Part shown: piece after piece, positions 8,587 through 37,911 of the stretch
How positions within the stretch are numbered: the first letter of the stretch is position 1
Layout of the letters: each line of letters opens with the position of its first letter
Assembly: GCA_015178975.1 (NCBI GenBank)
Contig: WHVD01000160.1
Coordinates: forward strand, 1 to 64,000
Length of the DNA: 64,000 bases
Origin: Hysterangium stoloniferum
Lineage: Eukaryota > Basidiomycota > Agaricomycetes > Hysterangiales > Hysterangiaceae
Direction of reading: 5' to 3'
Position numbers and translations under genes: made by a program
The notes under the pieces: model-generated
The model's database searches: none
The model's input: the letters and a program-made list of their open reading frames with translations, nothing else
Told to the model about the DNA's origin: nothing

Positions 8587-9013
8587 AAGAGAAACCAGAC
8601 ATTTGAAAGGTTGGACGAGTGCAGGAGGTTTGCTCTGTGGTAGAATAGTCTTTGCACTTTGTGTTCTCTGATGACCATGGATGCTCTCCTGGCATGTATG
8701 CATATTAGCATTCTCTTTGCCAGGGAGTATGCGCGAGTTCTCTTTGTCTGTTGTGACGTTCGCACGCCACGTTGCAGCAGTGGCAATGCTCTTTAGCAAA
8801 CTTGCAGGAGGGGAAAAGCCAGTGGGTGCTCCAGATCAATCACCCCAAGGAGGAGTGACTTCAATAAGCCGTTATGCGTCCGCCTCTGATGGTGAACGCA
8901 AAGAGAGGGTGGAATGAGACCGGTCCTTGCCTATGAAGACGTATAAATATATGTATAATACCGCATGAGCCTAGAGAAAGATATAATACCGCATGAGCCT
9001 AGAGAAAGATATA
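8587..9013. repeat. T1 left terminal inverted repeat (~400 bp)
   Basis: It begins AAGAGAAACCAGACATTTG and matches the reverse complement of 13978-14371 with scattered differences. The inner end repeats a 28 bp unit (TAATACCGCATGAGCCTAGA and following) twice at 8956-9011, where the right repeat has one copy. Read outward, both repeats keep a short open stretch (SLLKSIATAATWR, KENANMHT), so the sequence may derive from coding DNA. Confidence 0.8.
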
Positions 9014-9429
9014 GGTATGGTTTGTGTAGGACAGGACATGGCAACAAAGACTGTTAGCAGCTCAATCTTGAAGGAATGCAAATATGCTTACCATTCCCGA
9101 AAGTACCAACTGCTGACCACCCTCAATGATGAGGTGCCCTCCTTATCATGTCTATCTTTGTATCAATACTTCAGACTCATGTTGGCATGTCAATGAAGAT
9201 AAACATGAAGCTGTCTCAAGGTTTCCCTGAGTGAAGGGAAAGATGCAAAATTGAGCTAAAAGAAATCTCCCATGCTCCCTCAAAAGCTTTATTCATTATG
9301 GGTAATAAAAGGTCAGTCTCTGCGAAATGAAAAGCAGGAAAGAAAACTTTACTTACAGATGAGGGAAAAGGTATGTCTCTGACCTCTTGAGAACATTGCT
9401 GTTGATATTCAGCATCTCCAGATGCTGGT
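9014..9429. other. T1 subterminal region, no gene recognised
   Basis: No domain or repeat was recognised between the left inverted repeat and the accessory-gene ATG. It presumably contains the promoter of the accessory gene. An open frame at 8993-9196 has no motif. Confidence 0.4.
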
Positions 9430-11315
9430 ATGAAAACCAGGTCATACTCGGACACCGCACATAAACGTGTCACTTGGGCACACCTACTCTCCAACACTGA
9501 CCTGGATGACAATGCACTTCAGGATACTCCAAAAGATGCAGCTGTTGATGACTATAGACCAGAAGTAGATGCCAGTGACAGTGTCGATTCTGAAGACATT
9601 GTGATGGTCAGTGCTGATAGTGAGAAAGATGATGACAACAGCACCATTGAGGAGGGACAGAAGCTGAAGAGGAGGGCAAAGACTAAGGGAAGGCCTCCCA
9701 AAGCAGCTGCAAAGGCACAACCAATATTGTCGGACAATGACCGAAGTATGTACTTCAATCATCTGACACTTGTACCCCTGACTTTGTGACATCTGCTTTA
9801 GCCATCTTCGTTCCACTTGGATTTTCAAATGGGCAAGGCAGACTTACTATTCCATTTGGTGCCACCTTTTCTGAAGCACTGCATAATATATATGAGTTTA
9901 TGGGATGCCATAACTTTACTAGAAAGCCAGATCTACGTATGTTCTCAAGGGAAGTCCACGTGAAGGCATCAACCTTCACACTGAGATAGATTGGGAGGGT
10001 CTGAAGCAGCATGCTCGCTTGGTCCATACAAAAGATGCAATTATCAATGGCAAACTTCTTGTTGATGAGTCCCAGGGGGTAAGCTTGTGTCTGCCTGGAC
10101 TGACAGGTGCATCTTTCTGACAAGTTACGAAGTATATGGCCTCCTTGCGAAAGAGACTTGCAGATACGACTACCGGTGCTCTTAATGCCCACAGCAAAAA
10201 ATGGAGGAGCAAAACTGTAGTGCTGCCAATGTTGAACTTGGATACAACTGCTGGGCTGCAGTTAGATGAGAGTGAACTAATGTCTATCAAGGAGAAAGAA
10301 AAGATGCAGATTCTCAAAAATCGACTCAAGCAATGCACCAAGTGTGGTGAGGAAGTGTATTGCAAAGTCAACAAGCATGCCGTGCATGTGCCTCTGACTT
10401 TGGGGTGCAAATTCATGCATGGGCATGTGCAATAGTGAGTGGAACAAACTAATATATTATATATTCCTGACCCTGAGATAGGCCCATGATACACATGGAG
10501 TAATGCTGGATATTCCACCTGACACTGGTGCATTTGAAGACTTCCATGCCACCAGAGCTGAACGTCTTGCCAAAACAGCTTCTGTACCTACACTAGCCAC
10601 TGGTCCTTGCCCTATGGACATGACCAATGCTACAGCCCCATTTGCTGCCATGATGATGGGCATGGCCTCGGGAATTGCAAGCATGATGCATGCACCTCCA
10701 GTGGCTCAGGCCCCTACTGTCCTTAGCACAGCAACAGTTGCCAACTCTAGCAACAGTTGCCAACTCTAGCAACAGTTGCCAACTCTAGCAACAGTTGCCA
10801 ACTCTAGCAACAGTTGCCAACTCTAGCAACAGTTGCCAACTCTAGCAACAGTTGCCAACTCTAGCAACAGTTGCCAACTCTAGCAACAGTTGCCAACTCT
10901 AGCAACAGTTGCCAACTCTAGCAACAGTTGCCAACTCTAGCAACAGTTGCCAACTCTAGCAACAGTTGCCAACTCTAGCAACAGTTGCCAACTCTAGCAA
11001 CAGTTGCCAACTCTAGCAACAGTTGCCAACTCTAGCAACAGTGGTGGTCTGTAGAACATGAGTTTTGACATTGATTACCCAGAGATGGAGGTTTTTTTTC
11101 AGGAACTTATGGAACACCATCCTCAGTGTCGTGGCCTAGATGGCATAGCTGCCAACCTTGTGGCAAAGGATTTCCTTTGCATTGATGAGATAGCAGGAAT
11201 GTCAGAGAGTTGGTATGAGGGACCACCATGCAGCTTGAGTGAAGGAAATGCAAACTTTGTCTCCAAAGCTGTGAAGAAGGCAGTTAACCGAGCACAGCGT
11301 GATTCTCTAATCTGA
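9430..11315 (+). CDS. T1 accessory protein (AT-hook-like, Cys-motif, SAM-like C-terminus), multi-exon
   Basis: Exon 1 (9430-9745) encodes an acidic Ser/Asp-rich N-terminus and a basic KRRAKTKGRPPKAA block resembling an AT-hook. Introns with GTATGT donors follow at 9746-9801 and from 9937. Later exons give GRLTIPFGATFSEALHNIY, then CTKCGEEVYCKVNKHAVHV near 10335-10395, and finally IDYPEMEVFFQELMEHH with FLCIDEIAGMS and NFVSKAVKKAVNRA (11064-11310). The last block aligns by eye with the SAM-like end of the T2 accessory protein. A 16-unit 19 bp array (10732-11035) has stops in every frame, so it must be spliced out or it destroys the gene. Exon ends after 9937 are uncertain. Role unknown; it may act with the transposase. 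Confidence 0.55.
10732..11035 (+). repeat. 19 bp tandem array, 16 near-perfect units, inside T1 accessory gene
   Basis: The unit CAACAGTTGCCAACTCTAG is repeated exactly 16 times and followed by a partial CAACAG. Each unit carries GT and, 12 bases later, CTCTAG, so a splice from any GT to any later AG stays inside the array. 19 is not a multiple of three, so all three frames hit TAG within 57 bp. The high identity points to recent expansion. Confidence 0.95.
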
Positions 11316-11603
11316 AAGATCTGGCAATAGTTGTTTTGCGTACTTGTTCTATGCCAATTTATATGCAATACTATGAGTATTTCACAAGTAAAACTACCTA
11401 GCTAGACATATTTAGAATGATGGAACCAACCATGAATGTGATGGGGTTTGACAGCCTCTAAAGCTGTTAGATTATATAATACCAACCATTGTTCCAACTG
11501 GGACCATATGGTGTACAGCTCTGAGTTCAGTGTGTATATGATCTAATAGGAATGGCGCTTAGGGTTATATCCTTAAGTACAGTGTAAGACCAAACCTATC
11601 CAA
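11316..11603. other. T1 spacer between the convergent genes
   Basis: No coding or repeat signal was recognised. It lies between the 3' end of the accessory gene and the tRNA-like sequence, and likely holds 3' untranslated sequence. Confidence 0.4.
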
Positions 11604-11675
11604 GGTCAGATGGTGTAGTGGTTAACACCTTTGTTATGTAATCAAGAGATCCTGGGTTCAATCCCCAGTCTGGCT
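11604..11675 (+). tRNA. tRNA-Thr(UGU)-like sequence, probably a pseudogene or SINE head
   Basis: The 72 bases fold as a cloverleaf. The acceptor GGTCAGA pairs with TCTGGCT, with two G-U pairs; the D arm is GTGT/ACAC around AGTGGTTA; the T arm is CTGGG-TTCAATC-CCCAG. The A-box (TGGTGTAGTGG) and B-box (GGTTCAATCC) for RNA polymerase III are present. The anticodon would be TGT, but position 33 is A instead of the near-invariant U and pair 31-39 is T-T, which argues against a working tRNA. It sits just beyond the 3' end of the T1 transposase. Confidence 0.5.
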
Positions 11676-11689
11676 ATTCATTTTCTACA

Positions 11690-12864
11690 TTACTTATGTT
11701 TTCTAACAAAAGCACCATACAGAAATAAGTAAGGCTTGCCCTTCTGACCAGCTTCAATTTCACTGCAGAAGTGTGCACCATGACGATGAATGTAGGCCTT
11801 GATGAATGAGAAACACTCTTCAATCGGGTTGAAATCAGGTTAGTATGGTGGTAGGTACATAAGTTTGACACCCCTGCAGGAATTCAGCATTGGAAAAATG
11901 TCTAAACAGTTAAAGTGCTTACCGCTGGTCACACATTTCTTTGACACCATCCACATGATGGATTGCACAATTATCAATAACTAGCACACTCCGTGGCTCA
12001 GGGTATGGGTTCATTTCTTCAAGAAGTCCTGCAAGCCATGCTTTGAAGGTATTACCATTGAATGAACCTTGAACAATCTGAGCATAAATAATGCCGTTGA
12101 GGGATAGTACTGGAAGGATTGAATAGCTGTGATTGTAGCTCAGGTGGTGCAACTGCAAGAGCATCAAGGTACTCACTGTTCTCCATGCTGAAAATAACTG
12201 TGCACAGTAGCATGCTTCCCCTTCATTGCACATCCCATAGTGCAGTAGGTTGTGAGTATGTTCACAGCACTCTCATCACCAAAGACAAAATGCCAGGGGG
12301 GTTCCTTGGCAATATCAAATTGAAATGTTTCACGAGCTTCTTCACAGCGTTCCACAGCAACCTTTGAGAGCTGGAAAGCAGTGAGTGGTAATACAACTAG
12401 TAACTAAGCATTGAGCACATACCTTTTTACTTGTAATACCAAGGAATTTGAGGGACCGTTGAATGGTGGAGAGAGAGACAGCTACCCCATGTTGCTCTAA
12501 GAGCTGCTCTGCAATCTCATCCAGGTATATGTCTGGAGAACGATCCAGAAGAGCTAACATGAACTTGGAGCAGAAATGAGAGATGTGCTGATGACTGGAA
12601 GATAGGTCAAGACTATACCTCAACATGACAATCATCCAGCAACTGCTCCTTGCCCATCTTCTGGTACTTATTTGGATCCTTCACAACTTCTCCAATCTCC
12701 TGGTGGGTCTGCAAGACACATTGCACCACACGAAGTGACATGTTGAGGTTATTGGCAATATGGGTGGAGGTGTGTTCTAGTGTATAGTGCTGGTATATGA
12801 CTTGTTCCTTCAGGTCCTTTGAGTACTGCTGCTGAGAATCAGCATTTGGATTAGGGGAAGGCAT
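11690..12864 (-). pseudogene. T1 transposase, DD34E IS630/Tc1-like, five exons, one in-frame TAA
   Basis: Exons on the minus strand are 12619-12864, 12423-12563, 12177-12370, 11923-12126 and 11690-11873, each bounded by GT/AG. Exon 1 (MPSPNPNADSQQQYSKDLK) holds a helix-turn-helix; exon 2 gives LDEIAEQLLEQHGVAVSLST. The catalytic residues are D in FVFGDESAV, D in VLVIDNCAIHH and E in PDFNPIEE, with 34 residues between the last two. A TAA at 11840-11842 falls in PPY-stop-PDFNPIE, just before the catalytic Glu. Exon lengths 141, 194 and 204 match T2 (141, 197, 204). It would cut and paste T1 at the inverted repeats. Confidence 0.85.
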
Positions 12865-13787: not shown

Positions 13788-13977
13788 AAGGCAAGTGGGT
13801 ATGAAAATGGTCCATGAGCAAAGGTTAGTTCCTTCTATATCATTTGGCTGTACTAAAGTGGTTCAGGTCTCGAGAGACTCCTATGAAAAATGATTCTTCC
13901 TAATGCCGACCTCCGAATAACTGTGCCAGTTGCTCTTAATGATCTGTACTTTGATCCTGACAAACCAGAAACACCAG

Positions 13978-14371
13978 GTATATCTTTTTCTAGGCTCATG
14001 CGGTATTATATATTTATATGTCTTCATAGGCAAGGACTGGTCTCATTCCACCCTCTCTTTGCGTTCACCATCGGAGGTGGACACATCACGGCTTATTGAA
14101 GTCACTCCTCCTTGGGGTGATCGATCTGGAGCACCCACTGGCTTTTCCCCTCCTGCAAGTTTGCTAAAGAGCATTGCCACTGCTGCAACGTGGCGTGAGA
14201 ACGTCACAACAGACAAAGAGAACTCGTGCATACTCCCTGGCAAAGAGAATGCTAATATGCATACACGCCGGGAGAGCATCCATGGTCATCAGAGAACACA
14301 AAGTGCAAAGACTATTACCACAGAGCAAACTTCCTGCACTCGTCCAACCTTTCAAACGTCTGGTTTCTCTT
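13978..14371. repeat. T1 right terminal inverted repeat
   Basis: It is the reverse complement of 8587-9013 from GGTATATCTTTTTCTAGGCTC at the inner end to GGTTTCTCTT at 14371. The outward open reading (GFSPPASLLKSIATAATWR) is kept here as well. The following bases (GCTTTATTCACTACACAATC) may also belong to the repeat, because the left counterpart is covered by gypsy-1. Confidence 0.8.
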
Positions 14372-17915: not shown

Positions 17916-17932
17916 CACTCTGACCCACAAAA

Positions 17933-18563
17933 CTACTTATATTCAGTACTTGGTACACCCTTTGCCTTCAACACAGCTGCAACCCTCCTAGGCATACTCT
18001 CAATCAAATTCTGACACATCTCTGCATCAATCTTGTTCCACTCCTCCTCCACCTCCAGTATCCCTTTTGGTTCAACCTCATACTCCCCCAGCCTCTTCTT
18101 GATATGACCCCACAAGTGTTCAATGGGGTTGAGGTCTGGAGACTATGTATGCTGGCCATGGGAGGACATTGAAATTATTATTTTGAAACCAAGTCTGGGC
18201 CTTCTTGCAAGTACGCTTGGGGGTCATTATCTTGCTGGAAGATGACATCATCCACAGATTTTCCAAAATAGTTGAGGCTGGCTTGAAGGTCCTTCATAAT
18301 CTTGAGATAAAGGTCTCCATCCATCCTCCCATCTATCTTGCAAGCATACCCAGGTCCCTCCCACAGCATGCAGCACCCCCATACCATCACAGATCCTCCT
18401 GCAAACTTCTGAGTCCCCTGAACCAGCCTGTTACTCAAGCCCTCCCCAGTCCTTTTCCAGACCCACTTCCTCCCATCTGACCCCAACCTGTTGATTTTGG
18501 TTTCATCAGACCACACCACCTTCTTCCAGTCCTCCACAGAACAAAGCTTAGAGCGAAGCTTTG
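17933..18563 (-). pseudogene. Tc1-A transposase, catalytic part (DD34E)
   Basis: The minus-strand frames give VEDWKKVVWSDETKINRLGS with the first Asp, then GGSVMVWGCCMLWEGPGYAC and VIFQQDNDP with the second Asp. After a frameshift comes WGHIKKRLGEYEVEPKG, ending LKAKGVPSTEYK. It is close to the Tc1-B transposase at 41608-42628. The segment around the catalytic Glu (SPDLNPIEH) is frameshifted. The N-terminal part lies at 20113-20292, across the LTR insertion, and ~70 residues between them are missing. Confidence 0.85.
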
Positions 18564-19255
18564 TGTTAAGAGTGTGTGCGGAGCTTATCAGAGGGTTTCC
18601 AGAGAAACCTGCAGGAAAGCTGGTAGGACTTGGCTTCAGCTTATAGACTGCACCCTTGCGAGATCATGTCGTCCAATTTCAGATGGATAGACAGGAATCC
18701 CAGGAAATGGGTAGTTGGTGGTCGAGGGGTCGGGGGGTGATGAGTCAGAGGTCAAAGTATAGATGGGTCGGAGCCCATGGGCTCTGACGAGGTAAATAGC
18801 GGTGTGTTTCAAACAGGAGATTAGAGTGGAAAATATACTGGGATTACTGGGGGGAATCTAAGCTGAAAACTTAGTTGATTTTCTGACCAGATTGTATGTA
18901 CAACATTAGCTAATTTATCTAGACTGCTGAGTGTATGCAGTACCAAATCCAGTAATAATGAGATCCAAACAAGTAATCATGAAATGAGATAAGTAAACAC
19001 CAAGTTTGGTGTTAGGAACAGAACAGAGTCCAAAATGTGACAGGTCATTAGACCATAATGGGAATGGTGTGGGAGCAGAGTCCAAATCATGACAGGTCAT
19101 TTGTCCATAATGGGCACAGGGCTCAGTTAGAGAGCTGATGGGTTTTCCGAGCAGAGTCCAGTGACTGGTACATGGGACAGGGTCAGAGATAGACAGGATG
19201 GATGTGCACAGGTCCCAGGCAGGTATTCTGGTGACTGATACATCAGACGGCAAAG

Positions 19256-20489: not shown

Positions 20490-20625
20490 TTAGGAACCCT
20501 TGCTACATTGCGGGGTGGTCGCTTTGCAACTGGCCCCACAACTTTGCTGCAGGCTCCAGCTTGTTGGGGGGTGAAGCCCCCCAAACCCCCCCGCATCGAC
20601 AACTTTTAAGTATTTCTGAGACTCT
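20490..20625 (-). repeat. Helitron 3'-end module, outer copy
   Basis: It shares GGAACCCTTGCTACA, the hairpin TTGGGGGG-TGAAG-CCCCCCAA (20564-20584), ACCCCCCC and TTAAGTATTTCTGAG with 23500-23590. It carries an extra ~35 bp (GGTGGTCGCTTTGCAACTGG and following). GC-rich hairpins a short way inside the 3' terminus are a known Helitron feature. Confidence 0.65.
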
Positions 20626-20634
20626 TTGAACAGA

Positions 20635-21064
20635 AAGTGTTCAGAGAATGGAAAGTGTTCAGAGATGAAAGTGTTCAGAGAACGGAAAGTGTTCAGAGAA
20701 CGGAAAGTGTTCAGAGAACGGAAAGTGTTCAGAGAACGGAAAGTGTTCAGAGAACAGAAAGTGTTCAGAGAACGGAAAGTGTTCAGAGAACGGAAAGTGT
20801 TCAGAGAGTGGAAAGTGTTCAGAGAGCGGAAAGTGTTCAGAGAGTGGAAAGGGTTCTCAGAGCGGAAAGTGTTCTACGAACAGAAAGTGTTCTAAGAGTG
20901 GAAAGTGTTCTAAGAGTGGAAAGTGTTCTAAGAACAGAAAGTGTTCTAAGAGTGGAAAGTGTTCTAAGAGCGGAAAGTGTTCTAAGAGCGGAAAGTGTTC
21001 TAAGAGTGGAAGGTGTTCTAAGAGCAGAAAGTGTTCTAAGAATGGAAAGTGTTCTAAGAATGGA
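20635..21064 (+). repeat. 18 bp tandem array (~24 units)
   Basis: Units are variants of GTGTTCAGAGAACGGAAA, shifting to GTGTTCTAAGAGTGGAAA in the right half. 18 is a multiple of three, so several frames on both strands stay open (for example repeated VFRERK or SVQRTE). This is a property of the array and not evidence for a protein. Confidence 0.93.
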
Positions 21065-21104
21065 AACATCAGTCACAAATGGAAGCCACAGCCCCAAAAG
21101 GAAA

Positions 21105-21240
21105 CAATGGCTACAAAAGGAGACAAAGGTTACAAAAGGAAACAACAGTTACAAAGGAAACAACGGTTACAAAGGAGACAATGGTTACAAAGGAGACAAT
21201 GGTTACAAATGGAAACAATGGTTACAAATGGAAAGAGTGG
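21105..21240 (+). repeat. Second 18 bp array (GGTTACAAAGGAGACAAT type)
   Basis: About seven degenerate units of AAACAATGGTTACAAAGG follow directly on the previous array. They are distinct in sequence but have the same period. Confidence 0.85.
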
Positions 21241-21424
21241 TTAAATTGACTCTCAACTGCAAGTAATTACTGTGGTCACTCAATTTATTTATTTTGATTT
21301 AATGTATTCTATTTTGATTTATTGAATTTTATTTTATTTTATTGTTTTTCATTTCGATTTATTTTATTTTTAAACATTTTACATTCATTTATTGTATTTT
21401 ATTTGAATTATTCTGATTTTATTG

Positions 21425-22730
21425 AGGCCGATCAGAGGGAGATGGAGGAAGAAGGAAACAGTACACACAGCAGCTGGACAAAGAGAGAAGGAAATAGTAC
21501 ACACACTCACTGAAGAAAGGGTACACACCACCTGGAGGAAAGAGAGGGCTGATCAGAGGAGGATGGTGAAGAAGGAAATGGTAGACACACACTGCAGGAA
21601 AGAGAGAGGAGGTCAATCAGAGGAACACACACTGGCTGGAGGAAAGAGAATGGAGGCCAATCAGGGCAGGATGAAGAGAGAAGGAAAGGATACACAAACC
21701 ACCTGGAGGGAAGAGAGGGCTGATCAGAGCAGGATGGAGAGAGAAGGAAATAGTACACGCACTCGCTGGAAGAAAGAGAGAGGAGGCCAATCAGAGCAGG
21801 ATGGAGGGAGGAGGAAAGGGGACATGCACCTCCTGGAGAAAAGAGAGGGGAGGACAAAGGGAGAAGGAAATGGTACATGCACCGGCTGGAGGAAAGAGAG
21901 AGGAGGCCAATTAGAGGAGGACGAAGAGAGAAGGAAATGTTACACGCACCTCCTGGAGGAAAGAGAGAGGAGGCGGATCAGAGGAGGACAAAGGGAGAAA
22001 GAAATGGTTCACCCACCGGCTGGAGGAAAGAGAGGAAGCCAATCAGAGGAGGATGAAGAGAGAAGGAAACAGTACACACCTCCTGGAGGAAAGAGAGAGG
22101 AGGCCGATCAGAGGAGGACAAAGGGAGGAGGAAACGGTACATGCACCGGCTGGAGGAAAGAGAGAGGAGGACAGAGGGAGAAGGAGCAGTACACGCACCG
22201 GCTGGAGGAAAGAGAGAGCAGGACAAAGGGAGAAGAAGTGGTACACACACCGGCTGGAGAAGAGAGGGGGCCAATGAGAAGAGGACAGAGAGAGGGAAAG
22301 GGAACACACATCAGCTGGAGGAAAGAGAGGGGAACAATCAGAGGAGGACAAAGAGAGAGAGGAAAGGGAATGCACACCGGCTGGAGGAAAGAGAGAGGGC
22401 CAATCAGAAGAGGACAGAGAGAGAGGGAAATGGAACGCGCACCGGCTGGAGGAAAGAGAGAGGAGGCAAATCAGTGCAGGACAGAGGAAGAAGGAAATGG
22501 TAGATGCACCAGTTGGAGGAAAGAGAGAGGGTCCCGATGAGAGGAGGATGGAGAGAGAAGGAAACGGTACACACACCTGGAGGAAAGAGAGGAGGATAAT
22601 CAGAGGACAAAGAAAGAGGAAATGGTACACACACTCGCTGGAGGAAAGAGAGAGGAGGCGGATTAGCACAGGATGTAGGGAGAAGGAAAGAGTACACACA
22701 TCACCTGGAGGAAAGAGAGAGGGTGCGCTG
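21425..22730 (+). repeat. ~65 bp GA-rich satellite, about 20 units
   Basis: Each unit contains CTGGAGGAAAGAGAGAGGAG, then CCAATCAGAGGAGGA, GGGAGAAGGAAATGGTACAC and GCACCGG. Spacing varies from ~55 to 67 bp. A plus-strand frame of ~370 codons and several minus-strand frames are by-products of the repeat. The same satellite recurs at 63220-63510. A short GATGGGTGCAGGTG array follows at 22730-22803. Confidence 0.92.
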
Positions 22731-22800
22731 TGAATGGGAGTGGGTGCGCAGTGGTGGATGGGTGCAGGTGGATGGGTGCGCAGTGGATGGGTGCAGGTGC

Positions 22801-23660: not shown

Positions 23661-25853
23661 TCAATCTAATAATACATCTTTGTACACTATATTTGCTGTT
23701 CTCTTTGTCTCTTTTAATAATATTTTTATCCTATTCCAACTTCTTCCCCTTGAAAGTCCTACATACAATTGCCCATGTCCAAACACTGCCATTCTCAAAT
23801 CTATTCCTACCACTTTCAAAGACTGTCCCTGTGACTTGTTAATCATCATTGCAAATGCTAACCGCACTGGAAACTGAATACAATGCAGTTTAAATGGCAG
23901 TTGATCATCATTTGTAATTATTTTGATCCGTGAAAGAAATGCCATTTTTCCACTACATGGTCCAGTTAGGATCTGCACTTGAAGCAAATGATTTTCCATT
24001 TTCACCAATTGCAATTGTGTCCCATTGAAAAGCCCCCTCTGTGGATCTATGTTCCATGATAGCATCAATGGCACTCCTGGCTTCACCTCAAGTCGACTTG
24101 GTGAGATTCCACCAAAATTCAGGCTGTTCAAATACTCTACAGGATACATCTCTGTCTCACTGTCTCCCTCTGCAGTATCGGCACTGTGGTATACACAACT
24201 CTCCCCAGGGAATTTATTCAGAAGTTCTGAATTAATCACATCAACCTCTGAATTTCTTGGACACAGAATTGCCCAGTCTAAGAAGTCTTCATCTTGCCAA
24301 TCTCTTTGGTCTCTATCCACATGGATGTCTGGATATATCTCTGCAATTAGATGAGACATTTCTAGACCACAGATCATATGAGGAGGGATATCCATTGTAT
24401 GATCCAAAGGTAAATCCTTTCCATGGCCTATATCCAATAGCCACTGAGCAAACTGTTGACTGTCTGGATCATCCTGGTCCACCTGCATATTCTTTTTCAA
24501 GAAGAGTACCTTGATATGCTTCCACAGTTCTGATTTCTGGATACATTGTCCAATGACCTGTTCTTTCAAACCCTTTGGTACAACAGGCAAAGTCTGCTGA
24601 AAGTCACCTCCCCAGGCAACAGGAATCCCTCCAAAGGGAAGATCCTTCTTGTCTAATAAATCCCTCAGGGTTCTGTCAACTGCCTCACATGTAAAATGTG
24701 ACTGCATTGGAACTTCATCCCAGATAATCAGTCGGACTTTCTTCATGAGCTCTGCTTTTTCTGAACCATTGTTGATATGATATAGAGCATCCTTCTCACA
24801 GGGAACAGGGATTGAAAATGGGCTGTGAGAAGTGCGACCACCCTTGAGAATCATTGATGCAATTCCAGAAGATGCCACACAAAGCACAATGTAGCCCTTG
24901 GCATGACATGCATGTGCCAGAGTATTCCATACAAAGGACTTGCCAGTGCCACCTGGACCATTTACAAAAAACAATTTTCCCTGCTGCTCCTCATCAACTG
25001 CCTTCATGATAGTCTCAAAGGCAGCTCGTTGTTCAGGATTGCACTTTTCAAGATTAGCTTGGGCACTGGCATGCTCAATATCAACATCATAATCTGACTG
25101 CTCTTTAATGAGACGGTTGCCAAGAATCCCATCCCAATCATCAGTGCAGTTTGGCATAGTTGGATAGTGTGAGAGGGACTTTCCAGAATAGTGGAGGATC
25201 CTATCAATCTCATAGAGACCAAAGTCATAAATGTTGTTTGGTGATGGATTGAGAATGCCATGTTCTTGCTGAAGTATAAACTTCAAATCATCACAAAGAA
25301 ATACTTTAAAGTCATTCCAGAGTTCATGGGGTTGTGCAGGGAAAGACATGGTCAAAATGATAGCAAACAATCTGCAAAGTTGAAACCCAGACTCTATGCG
25401 ACTGGCTTCTGTGAGGCATATGTGCCACTGGTGATCATCTTCAAGCAAACCACATGCAACACAGGCTTGTTGAAATGTGGGATAAGTCTCACCCTGAAAG
25501 GTCCTGAGCTGTTCAAATGAGGTGGCACCTTTGACAACAGTGAGCAATGTACGGAGATGGAATCTTTCCCCACTGGCAATATTAACAAAATGAATACGCC
25601 CTATGGAAAAACCGCATTGATGTGGCTTCCATGATTTAGTCTTGGGTACAAATGTGAAATACTCAGGAAAGTCCATATAAAATGTATCCTTGGCATGCTG
25701 TCCATTATATCCAATGAGATCCTTAGAATTAGCCTCAAAATAAGCCATGAGAGTTGTCCCTGAATGCTCTGCCCTTTGCAAAGCTTCAGCAGGACCCTGA
25801 TCACCATCAAAAACTACAGTGTTTTCCCCAGGGAGATGGACACGGAGTGCCAT
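23661..25853 (-). pseudogene. Helitron helicase part (PIF1-like superfamily 1 helicase)
   Basis: The 730-codon frame has Walker A (NGPGGTGKSFVWNTLAHAC), Walker B (LIIWDEVPMQS), GGDFQQTLPVV (motif III type), and the C-terminal motif AFAMMINKSQGQSLK with YVGLSRG. It starts MALRVHLPGENTVVFDGDQ. In Helitrons this helicase is fused to the Rep nuclease and unwinds DNA during rolling-circle transposition. Here the Rep frame ends in TAA at 25854-25856 and the helicase frame restarts at 25853, so one base has been gained or lost. The helicase part itself is open throughout. Confidence 0.93.
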
Positions 25854-28144
25854 TACTGCAGGAACCTGGTGTGGAGTTCATTGTGCATTAATTGCCAGAC
25901 AGACTCATGTGCACTGACATAACGTGCATCAAGGTACTGTTGAATTTTATCTGGTGTTGTTCCAAATTCCATAGTTGTACGATCATGGCCCTTGTAACAA
26001 TATTTATGCATGTACTTCATTGACCTATTGGTAAAGGTCAACTCCACATTGATGTGGCATTCAAAGGTGAGAATCAAAATAGGAGAGTAAGGGACAACAT
26101 GTCTGTTGTCATATGTAAACTTGGGAGTTTCATAAACCCTTCCATTGTTAGGGCGACGGCATGTTGGATAGCCTTCCTCATTGACAATGGTGGTTTCACA
26201 CCACTCCTTTGGATAGTGTTTACTACATTTCTTATCTACCATACAGGCAGCATTTGGATGATCAGTTCCACAGGGACCATGGGTCATGAGTTGTCCTACT
26301 AAATTAAATAGTCTGGGATGTGTTTCAGGATCTGGAAAACAGGCAGAAACCATTGAGTTGACATCTTCTGGTGTCCTTGGCTTATTCTGGTCATCAAACC
26401 ATATGAGGCAGTGCATGTGTGGAAGACCACACTTTTGGAATTCAATAACATGGATATGAGCTACTGTTCTACCAAAGATGTGATCTTCTGTGATCATCTT
26501 GAGAAACTTAGCCTTCTTTGCAGCAAAGACACGGGACACCAAATCAGGCTGATCAGCAGGGGTCTGGCCAGGAAGCAATTCACGGGTGACCTCCTCCCAA
26601 TTGGGATTGGCAGTCATAGTGATGAAGCAGCTGGCATTGCCATACTTGCATGCAATTGCAAATGAATTGTGTAGACTTTGCCTCATATCCCTTGAACCCC
26701 CAGCAAATGAAGAAGGTAGTATCACCCTCTGACCAATATTATTAGCATCTGTATTGACATCCTGATTTGTAAATGCATCAACCACCTGGTTGTAGAGTTC
26801 TGCACGTAACCTTGGTTGATTATCCCTCAGAAATCTCAATCTGTGCTGCTCTGTTATGGCCCAGGCATTGACAATATACTGCTGGAATAGCTTTTGTGCA
26901 TAAAAAATGGTCATGGCTTCATTTGCTCTGGGAAATAGGCGATAGGCATAATATTCACACTGGGTCACTTTACGACTTTTATCTTCATCTTCACCTTCTT
27001 CATCCTGCTGTCCAGGCTGGGGCTGCCAATTTTGATTTGCATAGGGAATGTCCCATGACCAACCACGCTCACCTCTGGGGAAGAGCATGACATAGTGAAG
27101 GGGTGTATAAATGGCTTGTGCATCATGCACATGATGGAACTGGCCTCCCCTTCTCTGAACAATAATATCCCTTGGATCACCACGACCTGTATCACCCTCT
27201 CCAGGGAGAATGACTGCAAGTTCATCACCAGTTGGAAGGTTGTACTGTCGTGGATCATTAAAAGCCTTGTAGCTCAGTCTAACATGTAACCTTGGAGTCT
27301 CTGCCTGTGTCCTCAATCGTTCATGTGCCTGGCAATAGAGTTCTATAAAGGGATTATATTGCTCCATCATATCCTGGAGGTCAGAAAAGGTTTGGTTGTT
27401 CAAGTTTCGATTTGCCCTGTGATTCTGCCTTTGCTGCAATGCCTGCCTCAGTCCATCCACCTTTGCCAATGCAGGATCATGGATGTAAAGCTGAGCATAA
27501 CTACGTGATACACCTTCTGTGTAAGGAATCAAGGCACCATGCTGGTGATACAATTCACCATGAATTTTGAAGACATATGGGCCACCACCACCTTGCAAGA
27601 CAGACTCATCCAAATTGACACCAAGTGATGTAAATGCAAATGCATTATTATATGCCTGAATATTTTTCCGAAATTCTTTGCCATTGTCTGTATTATCCTC
27701 AAGGAGGGACCTTAAAGTGTGAGGGACTGGCTCAAGTATTGGGACGGCCACCTTTCCTTGTTTACCTGCAGCAGACCTACCTGCAGCAGAGCTACCGGCA
27801 ACAGACCCACCTGCAACAGAGCCACCTGCAGCAGAGCCACCTGCAACAGACCCACCTGCAGCAGAGCCACCTGCAACAGACCCACCTGCAGCAGATCTAC
27901 CTGTAGCAAAGTCACCTCCAACAGACCTACCTGCAGCAGAACCACCTGCAGCAGAACCACCTGTAGCAGAACCACCTGCAGCAATTACATTGTGGTGAGG
28001 CAATTCTGGTGGTTGCTGGGCCACCAAAAATGGATTATCAGATTGACCTGCAACACCACGGGCATGTGGGAATGGTTGAGCAGGGGGTGGAACATCATGA
28101 TCATTCACAGCTAAATGTCGATGGCAGTCAGAGGGGGATGTCAT
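25854..28144 (-). pseudogene. Helitron Rep (HUH nuclease) part
   Basis: The start is set at ATG 28144 (MTSPSDCHRHLAVNDHDV), although the frame is open ~54 codons further upstream. An N-terminal Gly/Ser/Ala repeat (27760-27985) is followed by the Helitron-like N-terminal domain, with YYAYRLFPRANEAMTIFYAQ and FIT-MTANPNW. The HUH motif is KCGLPHMHCLIWF near 26410. The tyrosine motif is YMHKYCYKGHD near 26000, with two Tyr in the usual spacing. Rep nicks and joins single strands at the element ends. The frame breaks at the junction with the helicase. Confidence 0.92.
27760..27985 (-). repeat. 15 bp repeat encoding Gly-Gly-Ser-Ala-Ala in Helitron Rep
   Basis: About 14 imperfect copies of a 15 bp unit (minus strand GGTGGCTCTGCTGCA type) encode a GGSAAGGSVAGGS run near the Rep N-terminus. 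The flexible composition suggests a linker. Copy number probably varies between elements. Confidence 0.88.
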
Positions 28145-29800
28145 TTGCAGTTGGGCCCTACACTGCCGTCGCTCCGCCTCCCGATTACGTTCAGTGTTTG
28201 ATCCATAATAATAGAAGGATCCACTCAAGAGAAAAATGCCAGTACAATATACTTGGTCACAGCACACAAAGGCTGTATAGGTACACTCAAAAGACCTGTT
28301 CACCAATATGGCACACTTTCACCAATTGGGAAGCACCACAAAACAAAAAAGAAAAAAGGCAGGCCAAGCTGTAGTAGCAGAGACAGAAAACCTGCAAAAG
28401 AGGGGAGAGAGGAGAGGGAGATGGTTGAAATAATTTAGGCTAAAATAAGTCAAAAATGTAAAAAAGAAATCATGAATAAACTTTAACAGCATTAGAGATG
28501 GCATTAATACTAACCTGGAGGTGGCCTGTATCTCACAGGGAGAATAGAAACAGCAATAAAGCCAAAACCTACAGAATGGAAGGTCAATGTTAGCTGTATG
28601 AATTATTTCTAAGCCAAAAATGGTGAAACTAATTACAGGGAAAGGACTCACTTTCAATTAATCCACTTATACTTACAGAAAGCAATCACAAAAGCAGTAG
28701 AGAGTGTCAGGGAAAAGGAACTTAGACAAATGGGTCTAAAATAGCCCAAAAAAAAACAAAAAATAAAGCATAATCAGTTTCTAACAGCATGAGGAAAGAT
28801 ATAAATACTAACCTGGATGGATATTATATCTTCCAGCAAGAATAGAAACAGCAATCAAGGCCAAAAGGCACAAAATAGAAGGTCAGTTTCACTGTATAAA
28901 TGATATTTGAGCCAAAAAAGGTTAAGGTTAATTAGAGGGACAGGACACACCTTCAATACTCCACTTATACTCACAGAGAGGACTCAAAAAAGCAGTGAGA
29001 GTCCCAGGGAAAAAGAATTCAGATAAATGGGTCTAAAATAGCCCAGAAATGCAAGAAATAATGCATAAATAAATTAAAATAGCATGAGAAGGTTCAGAAC
29101 ATACTTGGGACTATAGGATAGCCTTCAGACTGTGTATTCCAATGAGAAGAACACCCGGGAAAGGGTAATCTGACTGCAAATAAATTATTTAATCATTAAA
29201 AAAAGCAAAAATTAAATAATAATAGATAGGAGCTCACCACACCTTTTATGTTGCCTGAAGAGTTGAGGAAGGCTTCAGATATGATAGATGTTCAATATGG
29301 GGGGTCCAGGGCCAGTGGATAGCCAGACTCTAACTGCAGAATAATATATTTAATTATGAAAAAAGCGAAATTTAATACAATTAAATAGAGGCCTCAGCAC
29401 ACCTTGGTATGGGCCCAGGTACCTTGAGAAATATTCCAGAGAGGATCCCCGCACAATTTAATGAGCACAAAGGCAGGGGAGGGAGAGGGGAAGGGAGAAA
29501 GTGTTGCAGCCTCAAGACTTTATGCGGGCTTCCGGACTTCCCACGGTGTTACACAACATCACAGAATGCTCCCGCGGCACTAAAAAATACCCCCACGAGT
29601 GCCAAAAAGCTCCCGTGGCCTTAAAATACCCCTGTGATTGCAAAAATGCTTCCGGATTTGGTTCCGTGCTGATGTAACAACAAAAGCTGAGTCACTAACG
29701 GTACCTTTAATTTTTCGGGCATCTTTTTTGGCCGAGTCGGGATTTTCGCGTATTTTCGTGCATAGCGCCCACAACCCACGGAGCAAAATTCATATATATG
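28145..29800 (-). other. Helitron 5' region with ~297 bp tandem units
   Basis: Similar segments containing GGTCTAAAATAGCCC and TACTAACCTGGA recur near 28436, 28733 and 29030, giving a period of about 297 bp (28430-29130). No protein domain is seen. The last ~300 bp (29480-29795) is GC-richer, with CTCCCGTGGCC and CGGAGC motifs, and may hold the 5' terminus, which on the minus strand starts near GCTCCGTGGGTTGTGG. Confidence 0.5.
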
Positions 29801-29805
29801 GATAT

Positions 29806-31452: not shown

Positions 31453-32200
31453 TCATGGAAGATTTGGATATTTTTGATGAAATTCTTCAATAAGGTCAAA
31501 AGCATGTTCAATATCTTGAGAACCTAACCAAGAAGTTTCTTCATCTGTCTTTTCATATCCTAACCAATCAACTAAATATTGTAATGAGTCTTGGTATCTT
31601 TTGTCGAATTTTGAATCCAAAATCTCTCAAATTTCATATTCAGGTTCTTCTTCAATGTAAATTGGTGGGAGAGGTGGTTGTTTTTGATTTTGGAAAGTAT
31701 TGGGATAAAATGGTTCTAACATAGAAATGTGAAATATGGAATAAATTCCTTTGACATGATTGGGGAGTTTTAATGTATATGAATGAGATCCTGGTTGAGT
31801 GATGATTTCAAAAAGGCCTAATATTTTTTCTGATAGTTTTTCCAAGGGTTGAGTTGTTTGAATAAAGTTGGATTGTATGAAAACTTGAGAATGGATTGGA
31901 AAAGTGATTGGTTCTTTTTGATGTATGTCACCATAGTTCTTCCTTCCATGTTCAACCTAGATGCATGTTTAAGGGTCACTGGCCTTCGTAAGCATTGGTT
32001 GTGGTGGTTTTGCTGTCATTCTTTTGCTTTATGAGCCAATATTTGTAGTTCGAGGTGAAGACTCATTCTAAATATTTTATTTCATTTTTGTAGTTCATTT
32101 TCTGTTTTTATTACTGCATTTTTGATGTTATTTCTGATGGCTATGGGTTTTGGCTGTCATTTTCAATGAATTGGATTACAGCTATTGAATTTGTGACATG
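31453..32200 (-). pseudogene. Gypsy integrase C-terminus with chromodomain
   Basis: 31627-31845 gives KILGLFEIITQPGSHSYTLK and FHISMLEPFYP, the integrase C-terminal beta domain. After one TGA the frame continues ILDSKFDKRYQDSLQYLVDW, LGYEKTDEETSWLG and HAFDLIEEFHQKYPNLP, a clear chromodomain ending at 31453. Upstream (31860-32200) is a decayed stretch including RRPVTLKHASRLNMEGR. It belongs to a gypsy element other than gypsy-H, because it lies on the 5' side of that element's gag. Confidence 0.8.
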
Positions 32201-32546
32201 AATATTTTTTCATTTCTAAATTGTCTTTTTAACATCCCCATATAAGAGACCGATCCAACTCTCATCACCCAATTTCACTCGACTTTCATTGATCCCAATT
32301 TAATCCTGATTTCAAGATACCACTTGCAACATTCCAGCTTTGTACTTCCAAATTGTGGCTTCTACAAGTTTGATTTTTTCAATGGTTCTAAAAAACCTTT
32401 AAATGTACAATTACTTGATAACAATCATGTGCAGAACAGTTGCTTCCAGAGGTATAGTTGAATATTCTCTGAGGAATATTGCAAGACTGTCATGTGAGTG
32501 TGCATTCTCCAAAACTGGTACCCACCCTTACATGCTGGTCAGCTGG
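32201..32546. other. Unassigned sequence left of solo LTR G
   Basis: No domain was recognised. It is probably decayed gypsy pol, interrupted by the LTR at 32547. Confidence 0.3.
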
Positions 32547-33268
32547 TGTTAAGAACTGAAAACTGACTAATGTCGGTGGCCGACAGGGACCGATCGGAAG
32601 GACTTGGCTTCAGCTTATGTGCTGCGCCCTTGCAAATATCCGTAGGATGTCCTTAAATTTCAGGCGGGCGAAGACTAATCCTAATGAGTACCTTTTGGCG
32701 TGATACCGATTGGAATCGAAGGACAAGTCGAGCGTCAGGCCAAGGGGTCGGGGCCGGGAGTGGGCGAGCGCACGCGAAGGCGGATGGGGGGATTCTTAGT
32801 ATGAGACTGATACAGGCGTATGAGGGTATTCTGAGTCGATATTCTGATTGCCTAGTGACTACAACTACAGCGGGTTCATATACAAGTAACAGGTGTCTGG
32901 AAAATACTAATGGGGAGAAGGGCGGAACACGGTATTAACAATAAGCTTGACTAGGAATGGGAAGTTTATGATTAGTTCGGAGGCCGATGATAACCGAGAG
33001 CAGGATTACGATAAAAGGAAATAGTTCAAGGACTACAAATATAGATAGACATATGCGAAACATAAGATTGGATGGATCAACATAATAAAGGGGACGTATC
33101 AAAGTTTGACCAGACAATACGAGTTATTTTGACGTGGGCGTAAACGGAGTTTGATCTTCGTGAAAACATTCGTCAGCTTTGGGGCCGATGGTTTCCGATA
33201 GGATGACTTGAAACGTTGACAAGTGGCGATAACCTTGGGACCGATAGGGTTGCGACACGGTCGTAACA
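32547..33268 (-). mobile_element. Solo LTR, family G, complete, GCTGG duplication
   Basis: Plus-strand ends are TGTTAAGAACTG and CGGTCGTAACA. GCTGG flanks both sides (32542-32546, 33269-33273). Length 722 bp. In LTR sense it starts TGTTACGACCG and carries the core motif GCAGCACATAAGCTGAAGC. This copy defines the family G boundaries. Confidence 0.93.
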
Positions 33269-33389
33269 GCTGGTTACTGATGACTAGTGACATTCTGGTG
33301 GATTCTGGATCTTGATACTAGTCTGGAAGATGGTTTGGAACCTGATATGATGTCTGGAAAATACATACTCCATAAAGTCTCTGGGAATA

Positions 33390-34000
33390 GATCTTCACAA
33401 TATCATTCATCAAGTGTTGGAAAGCCACCAAAGCATTGGTGAGTCCAAATGGCATAACCAGCCATTCAAAAGAACTGTAGCATGTTCAGAATGCTGTTTT
33501 CCATTTGTCACCTCCAGCAATCTGCACCAAATGATAGGCATGTCACAAATTGATCTTGTATAAATGCAGGCTCTCTAAGGGGCATCTACAAGGTCTGTGA
33601 TGATTGGAAAAGGGTACCTATCCTTCTTTGTGACTTTTTTGAGTCCTCTAAAATCTATGCAAAGGTGCAATGAGCCATCCTTCTTTCTGACACAAAGAAT
33701 CAGGGTGCTGTAGGACAATGTGGAGGGCCATATAAAGCCAATACAAAGGTGTTTGTCTATACATTCTCTAAATAAAACCAGTTCGGATTGTGAGAGGGAG
33801 TATATGTATATGGGAGGAGGGTCTGCACCATCCTCAAGGTCAATTTTAAGATCATAGGTTCTGTGGGGGACTAAAGTGTTGGCACACCATTTGCTGAAGA
33901 TGTCCATGAAGCCATGATACTTCTCCAGGATGCCATTGAGGTCAACAGTGGCCTCTGAAAGGGTAGTCACACATGTGGAGGTGCTGAGCTGAGAAATGTT
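33390..34000 (-). pseudogene. gypsy-I reverse transcriptase fragment
   Basis: The minus-strand reading gives KYHGFMDIFSK, RTYDLKIDLEDGADPP, SLSQSELVLFRECIDKH, CVRKKDGSLHLCIDFRGLKK and PFPIITDLVDAP. After a frameshift comes [20 protein letters not shown]. The TGA at 33486-33488 stands where Arg is expected (before TCYSSFEW). The catalytic YxDD part is missing to the left. The right side is continuous with the protease at 37914-38430 once T2 is removed. Confidence 0.85.
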
Positions 34001-34002
34001 TA

Positions 34003-34130
34003 TTGCTCTTTGCATAATTCATGGCGGAGTCCAAAACCTTCATTTTTTGCTGCCGTTTTGAAGTGAGAAGTTGTAAAGGGTATATCTCCTCAAATATTGT
34101 GATTCAGGTCAAGTGTTGTATATAAAAATT
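34003..34130. repeat. T2 left terminal inverted repeat
   Basis: About 115-130 bp, matching 37797-37911 in reverse, including GGCGGAGTCCAAAACCTTC and AGGGTATATCTCCTCAAAT. Confidence 0.9.
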
Positions 34131-34431
34131 GATGTATTTTTGTCTTTCTTGAAAACTATGGAGCCAAAATTTCCACTATCTCAACAGATAAAATGCATTA
34201 CAACCTAATGAGTAAGTGTTATAAGACTCCTTTTATATGGTATTTAATGGTCAATTTTTTGTGAGAATATACCAGAGTGATTTCATTATACATATAAAGA
34301 TTCTCATGGAGGGATTTGCTATAGATATTTGTGTTTTAGCCTCTAAAGCAATTTCTTTTTGGGATAGGCGCTCTACATTTTTCATCAGTGTATAGGCAGT
34401 GGTTCTTCGGAAACTGCATCCAATTACAATC

Positions 34432-36264
34432 ATGGGAGGCACTAGAAAGACCATCAGAGGTTCCAGAGGCCAATTCATAGCCACCACCCGTGTCACTGAA
34501 CCATCCATCCCTGCACTGGCAGCTCCTCAGAATCGGCATCCTAAACTACGGCCAATTTTCAAGGATGCTGCCACAAAAAACTTGCAAAATCAACAGAATG
34601 ACCCTGAGATAGATGTGATGTGTGTTGCAAATGTCCTTTTGGAGATGAAAAAGGGTTCTTCTGCTGCTATACATAACAAAAAACAGGAGGCAGGTTTTCG
34701 GGCAGTATCTGGTACTACTAGTAAGTAATCTAATATCTCCTACTCTACTCTTATACTTTTATTTATTTATAGCTCATACCCATGGCTATCACAAGAACAA
34801 CACAATCACAGGAGATCTTAGAGAAGATTATTTGGCCGAAGGTTTTTTTTTATAATTTACTAGATTTTTGATATTTCAGCTAATAGTTCTTAAATATACA
34901 AGGTAGTAGTGATATATTTAAGGACGCAAGTGACTACAGTCAAGAATATGATGAAGTTGAAAATGATGGCGAGAATATGGTGTCTGCTGGACAAGTTAAA
35001 AACATATTCAAGATCCGATTTGAAATTCCATATGGAGCTGCTACACGCGACCTCAGAATAAACTCAGATGCGAGATACACAGACTTCCTGGTTGACTTAG
35101 CAGATTCTATGGGTTTGAAGGTTTCCAACCTTCGGGTGGGATACATTTTCTCTTTCTTGCCAAAATCCCCTAAACCCAAACCCAAACTGTTGGAGAGTGA
35201 AAAATGCTGGAACATACTGATACGTGATTTAGCTACTTGGATTGAGGCTGAAAAGCGTAAAAATAAAGGAAAAGGGATCGTCCGGCCTTGGTCAGTTCGT
35301 ATTGAGGATCTCAATAAAGATATAGCTGTCACACATGGAAAGGTAAGTTAAATTATATCAGAGACAATTTGAAACTTAACCTATTTATTAGCGAAAGAAG
35401 ATACCAACAGATGATGTCAACCAGCCAGCCCTTCAGAGACGCATGGGAGATAGTGCTGACGCTTTCACAAAGGAACACGACATAATCAAGGACATTGAGA
35501 AATATCATGCATGCAACAAGTGTAATGCAGCTTGCACTACTCTACCTAAGAGTCGGGATCACTATGTTTATACAATGGCAGATAAAGCTATTTGGGCCAA
35601 TCTTGTGGTATGTATAATATCCATAAGACATCTATTTTTCTGTACTAACACATAGAAGTCCCAAGGCAAAGCATCCATTACCAAGCCACCAACATCATTG
35701 GACTTAACACCTCGTATCCAGCTTCGTGACCTCAAAGCAAAGCTAGATGACAATTCCGCAGTCACCGAAACTCAAAAATTACTCGCAGAAATGCGGCAGC
35801 TTAAAGATTTTGTATTACCAATGGCCCTCAATCAGCCTGAAATCAAGTTCCCAAAGGCAGCTGTACCAACACCATATACACCTATTCGAGTTGGTGATGA
35901 AGGTACACTCCATTTTCGTGGGTGTCCAGGCTCTGCCTCTCCAAAGAATGTCTATAAAGCAGAGTCTCACAAAATGGCATCAGAAGTTGATTATCCTACT
36001 CTCGAACAGTGGCTGGGTAGCCTGGATGTGCATTCACTTCGTGGTCGTGACAACCAAAATTATAGTCGGTTCCATCCCTTGTTCATAGAACAAGGGTTTC
36101 TTCGATTGGATGACCTCGCTGATTTGTCAGGAAAAGACTTGCTTGATTTATTTGAACAGCATGGAATGAATGCAGGAACAGCCAATCGACTGATCAGATG
36201 GGCAAAAGAGGACTCTACCATACTTTCAGTGGAACCCCTTCGCAAGAAATCATGCCATGAATAG
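34432..36264 (+). CDS. T2 accessory protein with Cys motif and C-terminal SAM-like domain (~540 aa, five exons)
   Basis: Exons 34432-34720, 34773-34841, 34903-35342, 35392-35607 and 35656-36264 are joined by GT-AG introns of 48-61 bp and give one frame of about 540 codons. The N-terminus is basic (GGTRKTIRGSRGQF). Then comes a beta-rich segment (FKIRFEIPYGAATRDLRINS, LVDLADSMGLKVSNLRVGY) that could be a ubiquitin- or PB1-like fold, and a Cys motif (YHACNKCNAACTTL). The C-terminus DYPTLEQWLGSLDVH, FLRLDDLADLSGKDLLDLF and GTANRLIRWAKED has the pattern of a SAM domain, a protein- or RNA-binding, often self-associating fold. The T1 protein shares the layout. Function unknown; partnership with the transposase is inference. 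Confidence 0.75.
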
Positions 36265-36301
36265 TATGGGTAAAAGAAAACATTCTATTTGGTCATTACA
36301 T

Positions 36302-37499
36302 TTAGACATATCCACATTTATCATAGAATGCATGTGCATCATCTGCCGTAATTGAAAAAACTGCACTTATCAACCGCACATATACATCTGAATCATCTTT
36401 TGCAGTCCAAGCAGCTCACTCAACACCACCCTCATGCCGAATTTGTGCTTTGATAGCAGAAAACGCAAGCTCAATGGGGTTGTAGTCGGGGGAATAAGGA
36501 GGTAAACATTCAATTCGCATTCCACTGTATAAAATCCAATTAGTAGTATAAATAAAAGAGGATTAAGAGAATACCGTGAATGAATTAGATCAATAATTCC
36601 CGGATCCTTGTGAATCTTGCAGTTGTCCATCACAATAACTGAATTCCGGGCAGGGTATGGCTGCATGCGGTCCAGAAGGCCCTCAATAAATTCCATGAAA
36701 AGCTCCGTATTGAAAGATCCTTCAACAACTTTTACGGATATCATGCCACTATGTGAGATGGCCAGAAGAACAGAATACCTTATATTTACATTAGTAGTTT
36801 AAAGTAAAAAACAGAAAAGAGACATACCGTCTTCCCCGCATAAAAAAACATTTCCGCAGAGCCCACTGACCCTTTAGTGCCCACCCATACCCACGATAAG
36901 TTGTCTGACGGTCGAATGAGCTCTCATCTACAAAGATGAGTTGGTCTGCAATGTATGTCTTACCCATGTGATACACGTAGGCTGCACGTTTCTCTGCACT
37001 ACGTTCTCTTGCAATCTTTGTAAGCTACATGAGAAACAATACCGTTGAATATTAGTAACACCACTAAATGAGTAATAATAAAGCACATACCTTCTTCATA
37101 GTGAAACCCGACTTCTGAAGTGCTCTCCACACAGTTGATAATGATACTGAAGTCCCACACATATCTTCTAGGCTCTCCTTCAGCTCGTCCAGGTAAATGT
37201 CCGATGCCTTTGCGATTGAACCAAGCAGAAACTAGAAAAGAACATCAGGTAATTATAATATGAAAATCTATGTGAGCACTCACCTCTCGATCACCTTCAT
37301 CAAGTATTGACTTTCGTCCTTTGCGTCTGCTAGGGGAGTGGACAACTTGTCCAGTGCGCTTATAGATGGACAAGATACGTTCAATCGTTCGGCGCCGCTG
37401 ACCCGTGTATTCCATAATTTTAGCTATAGATAAGTGTTTTGCCATGAAAACAAGGGTCCACCGTAAGTCATCGGACAAAGGTCGTTGTCGTGGTGGCAT
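36302..37499 (-). pseudogene. T2 transposase, DD34E IS630/Tc1-like, five exons, one in-frame TGA
   Basis: Exons on the minus strand are 37284-37499, 37091-37231, 36828-37024, 36575-36778 and 36302-36524, with GT-AG introns. MPPRQRPLSDDLRWTLVFMA and RRRTIERILSIYKRTG form the helix-turn-helix domain. Catalytic residues are D in IFVDESSFDR, D in VIVMDNCKIHK and E in PDYNPIELAF, with 34 residues between the last two. A TGA at 36416-36418 (GGVE-stop-AAWTAKDD) lies after the catalytic Glu. Without it the frame runs to TAA at 36302. The stop could be a recent mutation; read-through cannot be excluded. Confidence 0.9.
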
Positions 37500-37796
37500 A
37501 GCGAGCGTGATGGGGAGAAGAACTGTCATGGCACAAACCGTGACTGTGTGACAAAGCAAAACCATTTTTACACGACATTGAGCACACAGATTACTTATTC
37601 CAACCGTAAAGAGTCTCAATATAGTGTTATAATTGGGAATGAAAAGGTCACCATTTACTTAAACCGCTAGATTTCTTGGAAAATTGACTAACTTATGTGA
37701 GGTAATCATACCGGCAGCACCAGCAGCACATACTTTTTGTGACAATCTGGCACCATAGGAAATAAGAGAAAATACATTAGATCAAATTTCATATAG

Positions 37797-37911
37797 TACA
37801 CTTGATTTAAATCGCAGTATTTGAGGAGATATGCCCTTTACAACTTCTTACTTCAAAACGGCGGCAAAAAATGAAGGTTTTGGACTCCGCCACGAATTAT
37901 GCAAAGAGCAA
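37797..37911. repeat. T2 right terminal inverted repeat
   Basis: Reverse complement of the left repeat, ending GCAAAGAGCAA before TA. Confidence 0.9.

Follow-up and report, generated by a model that had tools for sequence, protein, structure and literature searches.

Tc1/mariner elements typically encode a transposase alone, and it is for this reason that the two accessory proteins of TBE elements, which are under purifying selection, are termed surprising in the TBE report (PMC12242761). Their co-expression in E. coli left TBE binding unchanged (same paper). Tec elements, also of ciliates, have long inverted repeats (~700 bp), extra open reading frames (ORFs) and a DD34E transposase (PMC7325037, in extract). 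Further afield, pogo elements may have one or two ORFs (PMC7386202, in extract), and VANC is known as the anti-silencing second gene of VANDAL elements (PMC10398659, in extract). Is there a fungal counterpart? The window considered here, which spans the first 64,000 bases of C69, a contig in the 111 Mb genome of Hysterangium stoloniferum, holds two diverged elements, T1 and T2, in each of which a plus-strand accessory gene faces a minus-strand transposase. Both belong to an IS630-like DD34E clade of the Tc1/mariner group with about seven lineages in that genome (the labels T1-T7 are our own), and the content usual for the IS630-Tc1-mariner assemblage, a transposase only, is not what most of its loci show. 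H. stoloniferum is a truffle-like, ectomycorrhizal basidiomycete, and all the findings rest on this one species.

The convergent plan of T1 and T2 had been drawn in a preliminary description of the window and is confirmed for both elements, as are the lengths given there for transposase exons 2-4, which are exact at 141/194/204 nt in T1 and 141/197/204 nt in T2. With the T2 transposase, DDE_3 scores 100.1 bits (cut-off 28.6), HTH_33 25.3 (25) and the NCBIfam IS630 family 155 bits (cut-off 100); for the T1 transposase, taken without its last exon, DDE_3 scores 40.1 and HTH_33 28.0. The designation DD34E was also right, as the spacing between the second D and the E is 34 in T2, T3, T6 and T7, and is 34 in T1 as well by a hand count over exons 4 and 5.

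Is T2 one transposon, or a transposase that happens to have a neighbour? It is one mobile unit enclosing both genes, because sites empty of it exist elsewhere and because of the overlap at TA. A query made by joining its two flanks crosses the junction without interruption at, for instance, C510:33693-34067 (83%) and C103:88006-88383 (82%), while the window itself matches that query as two halves overlapping by 2 bases, TA; 42 matches to the joined flanks are listed, not all of which span the junction. TA stands at both borders (34001-34002 and 37912-37913), and with the inverted repeats (Table 1) this bears out the end at 37911 that had been proposed. A second full-length copy, L024, has 98.9% identity over 3919 bases; a further copy, L023, is rearranged and another, L025, is partial. 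The accessory frame is open in the window, in L023 and in L024, and the NCBI protein P0001 (531 aa) lacks 27 nt of exon 5 of our accessory model and otherwise agrees with it. In the transposase, codon 288 is followed by a TGA, past which the frame continues for 37 codons, and the transposase frames of the copies L024, L025 and L026 contain stops. The T2 target resembles a Ty3/gypsy-type pol region (ORF 33575-34018, by eye). Minus-strand gag/pol-like ORFs of that type were recognised by eye at 3573-7880 and 31627-34018, and T2 lies beside or inside one of them.

T1 is a broken copy. The stretch singled out in the preliminary description begins at 8587, and 399-nt inverted repeats are indeed there, but they are not established as the ends of the element, because other copies match on beyond 14371. 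Three copies (L029, L030 and L033) do so; the matching to T1 resumes from 16261 (from 15901 in L033) and in L030 reaches 17497, and L030 and L033 remain alike even beyond that point. Within the accessory gene is a 19-bp minisatellite, with a period that is not a multiple of three, and the NCBI version of the protein (P0003) terminates inside it. In the T1 transposase a stop interrupts the PPYSPD stretch (PPY*PDFNPIE).

Table 1. Positions in the window of the T1 and T2 elements, their genes and the predicted parts of the T2 accessory protein
Feature	Position	Strand	Details
T2 transposon	34003..37911		3.9 kb; basis: terminal inverted repeats, TA flanks, empty sites elsewhere, copy L024
T2 left terminal inverted repeat	34000..34173	+	174 nt, 83% complementary; first 3 bases are flank
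T2 right terminal inverted repeat	37741..37914	-	
T2 accessory gene	34432..36264	+	exons 34432-34720, 34773-34841, 34903-35342, 35392-35607, 35656-36264; 540 aa
T2 accessory, PB1-like beta-grasp region	35004..35309	+	P0001 residues 154-255
T2 accessory, zinc-finger-like motif CNKC-x3-C-x8-H and next helix	35512..35607	+	aligned with five other lineages
T2 accessory, SAM-like C-terminal helices	35980..36216	+	
T2 transposase	36419..37499	-	exons 37284-37499, 37091-37231, 36828-37024, 36575-36778, 36419-36524; DDE_3, HTH_33, NCBIfam IS630
T1 accessory gene, broken	9431..11312	+	minisatellite ~10737-11040, frame breaks; SAM-like end 11058-11312
T1 transposase, broken	11777..12864	-	ATG 12864; exons 12423-12563, 12177-12370, 11923-12126, last ~11777-11881 with TAA
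T1 inverted repeat, left arm	8587..8985	+	399 nt; putative end at most
T1 inverted repeat, right arm	13979..14371	-	95% to left arm; likeness to other copies runs past

How general is the pairing of the two genes? C-terminal portions of the accessory proteins, used as queries against the genome, gave, after merging, 54 accessory loci (T1 8, T2 6, T3 6, T4 7, T5 17, T6 4, T7 6), and a locus was counted as paired where a same-clade transposase lies within 6 kb. At 47 of the 54 that transposase is downstream on the opposite strand, i.e., convergent, where the expectation by chance is ~0.4 pairs; the forecast that homologues of the accessory gene would mostly be found beside a transposase thus holds within this genome. 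One further locus (C335, T1) has its transposase in another orientation. For six (C108, C112, C511, C529, C51 and C124) no transposase of the clade lies inside the 6 kb limit; of these, C112 is an internally shortened T1 copy (L033), and C108 has a T2-like transposase ~7-9 kb off. The gap from gene to gene is 0.2-0.6 kb in most pairs and 1.7-4.2 kb in T7, where there is extra sequence between the two (C157, C39, C303, C187, C1:4337259 and C533). T3, like T2, is a unit holding both genes: L037, L038 and L039 have in common a block of ~4.5 kb with inverted repeats of ~531 bp around both genes, and L038 and L039 each have TTA|CAGCCG on either side, L037 on one side (not the left).

The pairing can also be counted from the other gene. 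With a single query each from T3 and T2, 48 of the 66 transposase loci among the matches listed have an accessory gene within 6 kb. From 25 transposase places that initially had no accessory match, 12 were read: in three (L050, L051 and L052) a T6 or T7 accessory gene is present, in three (L053, L054 and L060) it is just beyond the retrieved piece, and in the other six (L049 and L055-L059) there is none in the retrieved pieces; a thirteenth such place, C68, is L035, where the accessory gene is present. Of the 18 loci without an accessory gene, nine are T3-related transposases that have near-equal scores (C101:997431, C339:16167, C373:7061, C383:7451, C408:4865, C468:654, C488:9100, C495:1081 and C75:167619) and that, to judge by the pattern of hits, may be one repeated family. 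The first of them is ~1 kb from the end of its contig (998,644 bases), a hint of a subtelomeric position. Within DDE_3 transposases at large, 10 of 150 scored loci (1664 candidates) have such an accessory gene within 6 kb, and all 10 are of this clade; L040, a Tc1-like element of another lineage with inverted repeats of its own, has no such gene among its ORFs of at least 60 aa, inspected by eye.

Are the accessory proteins a single family? The motifs pointed out in the preliminary description (IPFGATF in one and IPYGAAT in the other, CxxC, DYP) are present, and identity between the T1 and T2 proteins is as little as was said there, with a BLASTP E of 0.014 over 59 aa; hhalign of T2 against the T1 group gives E 0.12. 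With direct likeness so slight, the homology of these two rests on the other lineages as a link. Profile comparison aligns T1 with T6/T7 over 330 columns (E 1.9e-15) and T3/T5 with T6/T7 (E 1.1e-6); T2 is the outlier (E 0.0046 against T6/T7, 0.031 against T3/T5). Against a profile of these other lineages T2 scores 60.1 (E 3.5e-7, 330 columns running through all three parts), as against 16.5 for the reversed control and 19.3 for the best of 40 shuffles in windows of 40 residues. By these profiles the accessory proteins of the lineages compared share common descent, and the prospect that those of T1 and T2 would turn out to be unrelated, which had been held open, is answered through the other lineages.

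Sequence and modelled structure suggest that the protein starts with a disordered stretch, continues with a PB1-like beta-grasp part and a C-C-C-[H/C] zinc motif, and leads through a disordered linker to a SAM-like part at its C-terminus. The zinc motif, C-x2-C-x3..7-C-x7..8-H, is in six lineages (T4 excluded), with C replacing H in T5; a conserved W follows it, and helix 2 of the PB1-like part has a conserved W of its own. Structure models for two of the lineages suggest, at low confidence, a PB1-like and a SAM-like domain, and the earlier label of SAM-like agrees with that comparison of predicted folds. PB1 types are defined by the OPCA acidic motif and the type II lysine; by eye, the OPCA place in the PB1-like part of T6/T7 is basic (KPKAK). 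Pfam returned no PB1 match for the accessory proteins, no family up to E 1 for the T2 model, and only sub-threshold, non-kinase matches for P0002, P0004, P0012 and P0013. Among solved structures the query A3 had weak matches to the zinc finger of Gfi-1 (0.28) and to the PB1 of Cdc24 (0.73 and 0.75), and with the query A9 there were no matches up to E 5. Each of the 14 family members found in the database goes under the name "hypothetical protein" and is without a precomputed Pfam domain. Protein database searches yielded 1, 10 and 3 rows, all from H. stoloniferum, but restriction of the family to one species is not thereby demonstrated, because only ~8000 exact-word candidates were scored in each search.

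That selection maintains the second gene had been proposed from its presence in both elements, and the part of this that stands concerns the subfamilies. Between the T5 accessory genes L061 and L002 (65% identity, 222 codons) the ratio of nonsynonymous to synonymous change (dN/dS) is 0.13, though at a dS of 1.7 that is near saturation, and for the SAM-like part it is 0.08; between L051 and L052 of T6 it is 0.30, and between the T3 and T4 transposases 0.08. Three further comparisons had saturated dS and gave no ratio. Close T2 copies, on the other hand, present a mixed picture, with values for the accessory gene from 0.37 to 4.3, among them 0.37 (L023 with L024), 0.47 (L023 with the window) and 0.64-1.45 in pairs with the partial copy L027; for T2 transposase pairs the range is 0.21-1.3. 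The accessory gene is therefore constrained from one subfamily to another, while the youngest T2 copies give no clear sign of constraint. Accessory and transposase identities correlate across six lineages (r 0.75, exact p 0.006; accessory identities rounded, and T4 left out as its PB1-like and zinc exons were unassembled), as expected for genes travelling together.

How does the clade stand beside the systems mentioned at the outset? TBE elements of Oxytricha resemble it in combining a DD34E Tc1/mariner transposase with constrained extra proteins, one of them a zinc-finger protein, that were proposed to be accessory factors (PMC12242761 and PMC7325037, both in extract). They differ in being of a ciliate, in having two extra proteins (57 kDa with a zinc finger and a kinase, and 22 kDa), inverted repeats of ~80 bp and telomere-like tips, where the fungal clade has one PB1-like/zinc/SAM-like protein and inverted repeats of 174 bp (T2) or ~531 bp (T3). 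Pfam scans gave no kinase match in the fungal accessory proteins, and the tips, TTGCTCTTTGC in T2 and CAGCCGTTTCGG in T3, are not telomere-like. With Tec the likeness lies in the long inverted repeats, the extra ORFs and the DD34E transposase; its ORF2 is a site-specific recombinase, and none was noticed in the fungal clade, though no profile search was aimed at one. The Myb-like protein of PIF/Harbinger, TnpA of CACTA and VANC of VANDAL are second-gene helpers, DNA binders or anti-silencers, of other transposase superfamilies; comparison of the fungal protein with known families covered Pfam and NCBIfam scans. Ordinary Tc1/mariner and IS630/ISY100 elements share with the clade DDE_3, the helix-turn-helix, DD34E, TA duplication and inverted repeats, but for them a transposase alone is typical, as the preliminary description had it in agreement with the extract of PMC12242761, while the fungal clade mostly has two genes. 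Accessory-bearing Tc1/mariner elements are, then, already known from ciliates, and the fungal clade differs from these in having another accessory protein, no kinase match and no telomere-like tips. Among the papers listed by the literature searches none dealt with the pairing in fungi; it may nevertheless have been mentioned before in Repbase or in the survey of cut-and-paste transposons of fungi by Muszewska et al. 2017.

What, then, does the second protein do? It probably helps the element to jump, since it has been conserved by evolution. That it is an oligomerising transposition cofactor of a two-gene IS630-like clade is the reading we lean towards as somewhat probable. Head-to-tail assembly is a known property of PB1 and SAM domains, and it is this, with the possession by the transposase of a helix-turn-helix of its own and the length of the inverted repeats, that favours it. 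The accessory protein would enter the nucleus and bind the element or the transposase, on the long inverted repeats its PB1-like and SAM-like parts would let it oligomerise, and the oligomer would join the ends or recruit the transposase. Two results weigh against such a cofactor: 18 of the 66 listed transposase loci have no accessory gene within 6 kb, and between L024 and the window the accessory dN/dS is 4.3, with 1 synonymous change and 15 others. A bolder form of the proposal, that the protein represents a new class of assembly factor, one that coats the long inverted repeats as filaments and makes an IS630-type transposase, self-sufficient in other elements, dependent on a partner, is tentative and rather doubtful.

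The main rival has the accessory protein acting as VANC of Arabidopsis VANDAL elements does, i.e., binding the noncoding DNA of its own family and removing repressive marks, with the transposase then expressed. It is a possible but less than likely alternative. The inverted repeats are long and noncoding as it would have them, and between lineages the accessory domains diverge faster (17-40% identity) than the transposase (39-66%). The targets of VANC, however, are tandem repeats (PMC10398659, in extract), whereas the inverted repeats of T2 and T3 have only scattered two-copy repeats, and nothing convincing by way of repeated binding sites was found in them. More improbable is a self-regulator, which would spare the host some damage by repressing transposition in a dosage-dependent way or by modulating the assembly of the transposase. 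The predicted folds, being of an oligomerisation type, would suit a titration device, and accessory constraint between subfamilies also fits; selection on single selfish copies would, however, maintain a repressor less easily. A passenger, i.e., a captured host gene or fragment without a role in transposition, would account for the 18 transposases without an accessory gene and for the six accessory loci without a clade transposase, but we regard it as very improbable given that the gene is present in all seven lineages, is convergent in 47 of 48 paired loci and has the dN/dS values of 0.13 and 0.30 between subfamilies. Mere coincidence, two unrelated genes side by side among the nested elements of which the region is full, has a negligible chance of being right and was ruled out, as 47 of 54 loci are convergent against the ~0.4 expected, inverted repeats surround both genes and T2 has empty sites elsewhere.

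The rest of the window has repeats of other kinds. Adjacent minus-strand ORFs of 738 and 821 aa at 23661-28318 are, by eye, Helitron helicase/Rep-like. Fragments of Tc1-like transposases of another type are at 18178-18663 (minus) and 41915-42370 (plus), with WSDETKINRLGSDGRKWVWK in both, and 20490-22810 consists of long repetitive stretches with open frames on both strands.

The transposase-only content typical of Tc1/mariner and IS630 elements is part of the reason for their use as tools. Retention of a second protein by a clade across about seven diverged lineages offers a natural test of where such a transposase by itself may fall short, with end synapsis, nuclear entry and escape from silencing as the candidate shortfalls in a eukaryotic nucleus. 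If the new class of assembly factor were real, mobility would be conditional on the formation of an oligomer or on the lifting of silencing, and fungi would have arrived independently at what arose in ciliates with TBE and Tec.

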